A stretch of DNA of 27,603 nt from positions 1-27,603 of the IMG/VR virus record IMGVR_UViG_3300035670_001044, one strand, 5' to 3'. A program made the position numbers and the translations under genes. Source of the stretch: a virus. Within the stretch, counting starts at the first letter, position 1, and each line of letters starts with the position of its first letter. The notes under the pieces are model-generated. The model ran no database searches and was not told the origin of the DNA. It saw only the letters and a program-made list of their open reading frames with translations. This document shows positions 25,160-26,219 of this stretch, piece after piece.

Positions 25160-25200
25160 CCCGCACAAGCGGGCAACCAAACAAGGAGACAAACCCAGTG
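25160..25200 (+). promoter_or_regulatory. Leader module C: hairpin, AAGGAG, GTG start
   Basis: CCCGC (25160-25164) pairs with GCGGG (25169-25173) around ACAA, nine bases before AAGGAG (25183-25188), which leads through ACAAACCCA to GTG 25198. The stem is the same as in module A, but no TTGAC-type -35 is found upstream, so this copy is probably within the operon transcript. Confidence 0.65.
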
Positions 25201-25791
25201 AACACACAAACCCAAACAACCACCCTCACAGCAACACTGCCAGACCTCACCGAGCTATTCAGAGTGGCAGCCCTATACACCAGCACCGACAAACCAGCAC
25301 TGGCAAGCGCCCTGATCGAACCAGCAGCAGAACACACCACAGCCACAGCCACGGACAGCACCGCCGCGATTATCTACGCCACCCAGTTAGTCAGTGGCAC
25401 AGGTCCAGCCATCCACTTGCCCGCCCGCGAAATCGCAAAGCACCTGGCAAACGCCGGCAAAACCATCGGCAAACGCCACACCGCAAACATGGGCGCAATA
25501 ATCACCGCCACCGCCGACACATGGAGTATCGAGATCCCCGCCGCAGGGATCACCAGCAGCGGCACACACCAACAACCCGCACACTGGCCCAACATGGCAC
25601 CACTATTCACCACACCAGAAGAACCCAGCACCACCCCCTACCGCATGGCAGCCGAACAACTCGACCGCCTCACCCGCACCGCCGACTACATCACCCACAC
25701 CCACAGCAACCCCACCAAACCCAACCACTACACCACCACCAGCAACCACGGCCACAGCCAAATAATCGTCATGCCTTGCCGCATGAACTAG
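25198..25791 (+). CDS. Sliding-clamp-like protein (short)
   Basis: A 197-residue protein that looks like a shortened DNA polymerase III beta clamp. Signs are LFRVAALYTSTDKPALASALIEPA (clamp-type helix and strand with the DKPAL turn), TATATDSTAAIIYATQLV (the ATDS strand), IHLPAREIAKHLANAGK, and a C-terminal end HSQIIVMPCRMN that resembles the LMPVRL-like clamp terminus. Bacterial clamps have about 370 residues in three domains; at 197 residues only two fit, so it would need to trimerise like PCNA. The composition is extreme: Thr-rich and C-rich codons. Last gene of the early operon, closed by a terminator. The assignment is by pattern and uncertain. Confidence 0.55.
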   Translation: MNTQTQTTTLTATLPDLTELFRVAALYTSTDKPALASALIEPAAEHTTATATDSTAAIIYATQLVSGTGPAIHLPAREIAKHLANAGKTIGKRHTANMGAIITATADTWSIEIPAAGITSSGTHQQPAHWPNMAPLFTTPEEPSTTPYRMAAEQLDRLTRTADYITHTHSNPTKPNHYTTTSNHGHSQIIVMPCRMN

Positions 25792-25828: not shown

Positions 25829-25863
25829 GAGACCCCGCCCGCAACCCCCGCCGGCGGGGTCTC
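25829..25863 (+). terminator. Strong hairpin terminator of the early operon
   Basis: GAGACCCCGCC (25829-25839) and GGCGGGGTCTC (25853-25863) form a perfect 11-bp GC-rich stem with a 13-base loop. No U-tract follows, as is common in actinobacteria. It lies 38 bases after the last gene of the operon. Confidence 0.7.
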
Positions 25864-26176: not shown

Positions 26177-26219
26177 TTGTCCACAGGCTGTGGATAAGTT
26201 GGTTGGGGTCTGTGGATAT
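26177..26219. promoter_or_regulatory. Cluster of three DnaA boxes
   Basis: TTGTCCACA at 26177-26185 (the preferred actinobacterial box), TGTGGATAA at 26189-26197 (reverse of the exact consensus TTATCCACA) and TGTGGATAT at 26211-26219 (reverse of ATATCCACA). The first two face each other across three bases, forming a palindrome. It lies in a gene-free region at the skew switch, as expected for an origin using host DnaA. Confidence 0.7.

Follow-up and report, generated by a model that had tools for sequence, protein, structure and literature searches.

The open reading frame at 25198-25791 of the window (the whole stretch of DNA analysed here, a viral record 27,603 bases long) is confirmed as a real gene, and its 197-residue product is best read, from sequence alignments and a predicted fold, as a sliding clamp of one and a half domains consisting of DnaN domain II and the C-terminal half of domain III. 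The protein truly belongs, as a strongly divergent member, to the short phage clamps, a class apparently uncharacterised in the literature searched; no description of phage clamps of one and a half domains was found in the titles and abstract openings listed by searches of the open-licence PMC literature. The main interest lies in this class and in its pocket-keeping architecture. Various phages have short clamps, and PHROGs lists these as resolvases, so that likely replication proteins are easily overlooked. A pocket-only clamp, if true, would separate the docking function of clamps from the encircling function, and it makes the takeover of a host replisome by a small phage a testable question.

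The gene and its flanking elements are as follows:

25198-25791, plus strand: short clamp-like coding sequence of 197 amino acids with a GTG start, from the open reading frame and its translation
25183-25188, plus strand: AAGGAG ribosome-binding site, 9 nt 5' of the GTG, read from the sequence
25829-25863, no strand assigned: hairpin directly 3' of the clamp stop codon, an inverted repeat with 14-nt arms

The preliminary description of this DNA had reported an open reading frame with a C-terminal VMPCRM at this place, and both are present. The composition of the protein is odd, being rich in Thr, Ala and His. A search of IMG/VR returned a single close relative, a protein of equal length with 84% identity in the record L002. 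The two genes differ at 21, 16 and 45 sites in codon positions 1, 2 and 3, respectively, and dN/dS was 0.105/0.327 by the NG86 method and 0.081/1.14 by YN00, a comparison which supports purifying selection on the clamp gene. The near relatives L005, L008 and L009, whose records are possibly fragments, gave no match to the gene, which seems dispensable for that reason. The hairpin likely marks the end of the clamp transcript. A hairpin is also found in the same place in L002 (6631-6665), where the arms are changed between the two phages yet still pair; it has no T-run.

Taken alone, the 197-residue protein matched no family in Pfam, PHROGs (none at E up to 10) or NCBIfam, and no sequence in the PDB. 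A tblastn search against phages gave no usable match at E up to 1, and with the L002 protein added only two rows at chance level appeared at E up to 10. Genome contigs from GTDB likewise gave no usable match, either for this protein or with the actinophage clamps described below as queries, and hhalign assigned a probability of 0.3% when the two-row alignment of the protein with L002, which is a thin profile, was compared with the actinophage clamps. With E. coli DnaN as the query 404 phage records were matched; among the 60 matches listed, eight partial ones were opened, and seven of these encode short proteins (six of 171-204 aa and one of 258) and one a full-length clamp (382 aa). A profile of those seven together with the window protein revealed further short clamps among the open reading frames of loci that had been fetched by their RecT genes.

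The score of the window protein depended on the members of the profile. It was 2.4 bits with seven proteobacterial-phage clamps alone and 8.4-12.1 bits after actinophage members had been added, and the main profile, built from 34 short phage clamps with the window protein and L002 left out, gave 13.8 bits (E 2e-6 for one sequence). None of 1000 residue shuffles and none of 1000 block shuffles reached this score, so the clamp-like strings noted in the preliminary description are indeed above chance. Among 9435 six-frame open reading frames from 49 loci and the window, the same profile gave the protein an E of 0.05 and ranked it above all non-clamp frames; the frames ahead of it were L002 and seven other clamps, six of which belong to the profile. 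The signal is mostly in the C-terminal part of the protein: residues 124-197 alone scored 10.1 bits, which 0 of 1000 shuffles reached, and residues 1-123 alone scored 2.3 bits, a value that was reached by 55 of 1000 shuffles and is not significant. For alignment and modelling the 34 clamps were combined with the window protein and L002 into 36 rows (alignment A9). Of 80 kept pattern-scan loci (see below) 34 were inspected and 25 used, near-duplicates being dropped; a further short clamp, L042, was left out, and L058, which was also looked at, has a full-length clamp. Identity between the window protein and the 34 other members is 10-19%, and it aligns collinearly with the short-clamp family over its full length.

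AlphaFold2 run on these 36 rows predicted a fold with pLDDT 91.0 and pTM 0.88, a result that depends on an alignment assembled within this analysis; a run on the protein and L002 alone gave pLDDT 32.4 and was discarded. In a Foldseek search of the PDB the best 50 of 234 matches at E <= 0.001 were all DnaN. VIA-align paired the model with 8dj6_A at Z 17.4 (174 residues, 2.6 A) and with 8dt6_D at Z 16.6 (185 residues, 3.1 A), and with archaeal PCNA at Z about 15.4 (1rxm_A, 173 aligned residues). The preliminary description had proposed a bacterial-type clamp of about half the usual length and had let that idea stand or fall with a clamp-like fold in structure prediction; the predicted fold is clamp-like, and together with the profile it supports a homologue of the DnaN-type sliding clamp. 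As the 50 VIA-align rows were split between DnaN domains I-II (28), DnaN domains II-III (14) and PCNA (8), the structure comparison cannot tell which of the DnaN domains are present. The following division, in which the parts are best read as belonging to domains II and III, comes from the sequence alignments:

25219-25566, plus strand: complete clamp domain, the equivalent of DnaN domain II, residues 8-123 (model, family alignment, PF02767)
25567-25617, plus strand: WPNM segment, residues 124-140, joining domain II to the half-domain (alignment of E. coli DnaN and the family)
25618-25788, plus strand: C-terminal half of DnaN domain III, residues 141-197, with the end VMPCRMN (model, PF02768 match of the relative L051, shuffles)

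In the model, residues 8-123 form two complete beta-alpha-beta-beta-beta units, and domain II keeps its second inner helix (residues 76-90). After this domain there is one further unit, with a helix at 152-161 and strands at 164-168, 176-181 and 186-191, so that three long helices are predicted in 197 residues. Thus the earlier idea of a two-domain sliding clamp holds for the clamp and fails for the domain count, which by the model and the alignments of the relatives is one complete domain and a half. In the linker, WPNM is aligned with FPDY of DnaN, and P131 takes the place of DnaN P242. Among the short relatives, PF02767 (domain II) scores above PF00712 (domain I) where both match, with nearly all scores below the curated cut-offs; neither model matched L050, L021 or L042. 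The relative L051 matches positions 67-121 of the 121 in PF02768, which make up the latter half of the C-terminal domain, and the short-clamp profile aligns its final 62 positions to E. coli DnaN 311-366. As domain III is built of two repeated halves, local searches may extend into its first half as well, and the assignment to the second half therefore rests on the FN..YL motif of the relatives and on the C-terminus. A further idea, that short clamps of the proteobacterial type are too tightly spaced in domain II to hold its second inner helix, was discarded in view of the spacing between the positions of T172 and P242 (58-99 residues in 25 members vs 71 in E. coli).

To locate the partner-binding pocket we used the 18 DnaN residues listed in the accessible text of PMC11139829, which places T172 in subsite I, names I78, F106, I272 and L273 as the dimer core, and describes the pocket as conserved in DnaN generally. 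Two pocket elements of the window protein are assigned by alignment to this list:

25351-25356, plus strand: T52-D53, aligned with DnaN T172-D173
25771-25782, plus strand: M192-P193-C194-R195, aligned with DnaN M362-R365

All 18 of the listed residues belong to the retained parts (E. coli 152-247 or 320-365), and all four dimer-core residues named in that text are within the lost parts, domain I and the N-terminal half of domain III. The alignments and the model thus support that the segments bearing both sides of the DnaN dimer interface are missing. In the 34-member family, pocket residues make up six of the seven most conserved columns (hypergeometric 4e-6), and the window protein has the family residue at all six: L35, T52, P131, M192, P193 and R195, identical to E. 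coli L155, T172, P242, M362, P363 and R365. Over all positions, residues identical to E. coli are found at 6 of 18 pocket positions and at 11 of 152 others (Fisher p 0.004), and the commonest residue of the family at 7 of 18 and 28 of 152 (p 0.049), a marginal enrichment. It appears from these comparisons that the most conserved residues of the predicted pocket are retained. The changed positions include R152 to K, H175 to T, R176 to A, R246 to P, N320 to A and Y323 to Q, and since only 6 of the 18 equal those of E. coli, the pocket may have changed or lost its affinity or specificity. Because the pocket is conserved in DnaN generally, its conservation is compatible with a ring, too.

The extent of the short-clamp class was estimated in two ways. 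A pattern scan of IMG/VR gave 476 stretches, 418 of which were confirmed as relatives of a Hafnia phage yong1 protein; 80 of these were kept and 34 inspected, all 34 being short (168-216 aa from the match start), and the other 384 may include full-length clamps. When 46 records with related RecT genes were searched whole, eight matches were obtained, seven short clamps and one of full length (L026), where the seven are rows of the alignment used as the query and the records may be fragments; the count is a lower bound, having missed the short clamp of L042 and a clamp in L027. Five of the seven actinophage short clamps found near RecT are upstream of it and two downstream, and the window gene is about 7 kb downstream of its RecT. 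PHROG 3007 or 12598 takes in all ten short clamps scanned, and both families are labelled RusA-like Holliday junction resolvase. This label is apparently wrong, because nine of the ten clamps also match PHROG 947, four of four scanned match TIGR00663 (below cut-off), PF02767 is matched as well, and no RusA match was found for any of 14 clamps scanned in Pfam. The DnaN-like proteins of two RefSeq phage records, NC_048067 and NC_005887, have the same RusA-like label. Members of PHROG 12598/3007 (L039, L064, Klebsiella phage 6991 and Hafnia phage yong1) share with the window protein domain II, the C-terminal half of domain III, the pocket residues and the phage setting; unlike them, the window protein is missed by the PHROG models, and its homology is seen only with the profiles built here.

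Actinophage members also have a C-terminal tail, which is lacking in the window protein. The tails are rich in lysine and alanine in some of ten actinophage relatives, with K+R vs D+E counts of 18/7 of 68 residues in L039, 15/4 of 63 in L033 and 11/5 of 43 in L064. The basic character is weaker in L037, L035 and L060, the tails of L032 and L070 are not basic, and that of L042 is acidic. L021 (13567-14694) encodes a fusion of a short clamp with a DNA-binding FtsK gamma domain (PF09397, E 1.8e-17). Basic tails and this fusion weakly suggest DNA tethering in the actinophage branch. Shortly after the C-terminal pocket strand, L037, L035, L039, L033, L064 and L032 have a W..(F/L)L.P string, absent from the window protein, which could be a docking or self-blocking motif.

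Twenty other open reading frames of the window were scanned with Pfam and/or PHROGs, and they include a major head protein, a tail fibre protein, an exonuclease, a RecE-like exonuclease, RecT, an endonuclease VII-type gene, a WhiB-type regulator, a cytosine methylase and a Dam-type methylase. No DNA polymerase was seen among the window genes scanned, and a scan of 37 chosen open reading frames for clamp-binding motifs turned up no more than two weak strings. The RecT protein has matches in 145 phage records, most often of Gordonia phages, and the capsid protein in 51, mostly of Streptomyces phages, all at less than 60% identity. Downstream of the clamp gene there is a possible replication origin of the phage (26177-26219), with sites scored against the DnaA-box consensus:

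26177-26185 and 26189-26197: perfect inverted pair of DnaA-box-like sites, about 390 bases downstream of the clamp gene

GC and AT skew both switch sign at this pair, and the window has five exact sites vs 0.58 expected; at one mismatch there is no excess in the window (15 vs 13.7 expected). A near match to the site is found beside the pair. The same inverted pair with the same spacing is present in L002 and L008, and two sites are present in L009. L008 and L009, which have these sites and whose records are possibly fragments, gave no short clamp; the putative origin therefore does not seem to need the clamp.

As to function, we lean, with somewhat better than even confidence, towards a divergent clamp of one and a half domains that presents the pocket without forming a canonical ring and recruits or diverts host proteins that bind clamps. 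The pocket would bind host proteins with clamp-binding motifs, such as polymerase III alpha (DnaE1), the clamp-loader delta subunit and others, and these would be recruited to the phage DNA as it replicates and undergoes RecE/RecT recombination; alternatively, the protein may compete with the host clamp for its partners. A redirecting of the host polymerase by the phage, as put forward in the preliminary description, is plausible in this putative form. In the available part of PMC3022782, the authors describe that they failed to obtain a clone of the I272A-L273A clamp, a monomer whose cleft still works, and they read this as a dominant-negative effect; according to the accessible text of PMC11139829, the binding of delta to this monomer is about 50-fold better than to the dimer. 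From these effects, as far as the two excerpts describe them, a ringless pocket protein could seize host clamp-binding proteins. The same two excerpts speak for a pure inhibitor, a decoy that titrates the host clamp-binding proteins and halts host replication, which is a subset of the pocket-presentation reading and in our judgement unlikely. It would mean self-harm for a phage using the host polymerase, unless timing or pocket specificity protects it, and the basic tails and the FtsK gamma fusion of L021 hint at DNA tethering, though the tail of L042 is acidic. Recruitment is ranked above pure inhibition because no DNA polymerase is among the scanned window genes and the host enzyme is presumably needed. 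The apparent dispensability of the clamp gene counts against pocket presentation. It also fits a decaying, functionless remnant of a captured dnaN, as do the extreme divergence and the odd Thr/Ala/His-rich composition. Such a remnant is improbable considering that dN/dS is below 1, that third-position changes are in excess relative to L002, that the open frame and the pocket residues are kept in both phages, and that other phages have the same architecture. Even more improbable is a protein that is no clamp at all, whose likeness would be an effect of its composition or of the alignment supplied to AlphaFold: the lack of a family match for the protein alone, the weak residues 1-123 and the failed two-sequence model would agree with this, but 0 of 2000 shuffles, the collinear full-length alignment and the pLDDT of 91 do not.

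A real processivity ring with a new geometry, in its most natural form made of four protomers and six domains, is a minority possibility in our view. The arithmetic is in its favour, one and a half domains times four being six, and a clamp domain consists of two repeats with a pseudo-twofold axis between them. The half-domain should expose a surface that would normally lie under the missing half, domain II retains its second inner helix, and the domain II spacing in the family is like that of E. coli. Against a ring, the canonical interface segments are missing. The specific arrangement, in which a partner-docking arc rebuilds the ring by pairing half-domains across four protomers into six domains, we consider doubtful. 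The homotrimer resembling PCNA that the two-domain idea had implied is highly improbable. A shortened E. coli DnaN comprising domains II-III, beta*, was reported to form a trimer, and VIA-align does pair the model with PCNA, but three copies of the window protein would supply only 4.5 domains and not the six of a PCNA or DnaN ring. Moreover, there are three long helices and a single unit after the first domain in 197 residues, and the half-domain with I272 and L273 is missing.

Compared with DnaN (TIGR00663, PF00712/PF02767/PF02768), the window protein appears to have in common the fold, domain II, the pocket elements and the C-terminal MPxR, and to differ in having one and a half domains rather than three, with no domain I and no N-terminal half of domain III, hence no dimer interface. 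The model shares the clamp fold of PCNA and T4 gp45 (Z about 15 for PCNA), which the available part of PMC4858162 describes as two clamp repeats per protomer in homotrimeric rings; in the model, half of the second domain is missing and three long helices are predicted. Among predicted viral structures, the second-best match of the model (E 1.6e-10) was the "DNA polymerase III, beta subunit" of Rhodococcus phage REQ2 (BFVD G9FGZ4), a 266-aa protein with 15% identity and a TM of 0.81 by the length of the window protein. Adephagia gp35 (L003 2360-3568) is called a sliding clamp in the accessible text of PMC11373665 and was set aside as a lead, several of its matches being annotated as Mre11-type nucleases or exonucleases. 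Finally, the Campylobacter phage A18a record MG065686.1 contains at 113831-114928 the dnaN gene of E. coli with 100% protein identity, possibly by contamination.
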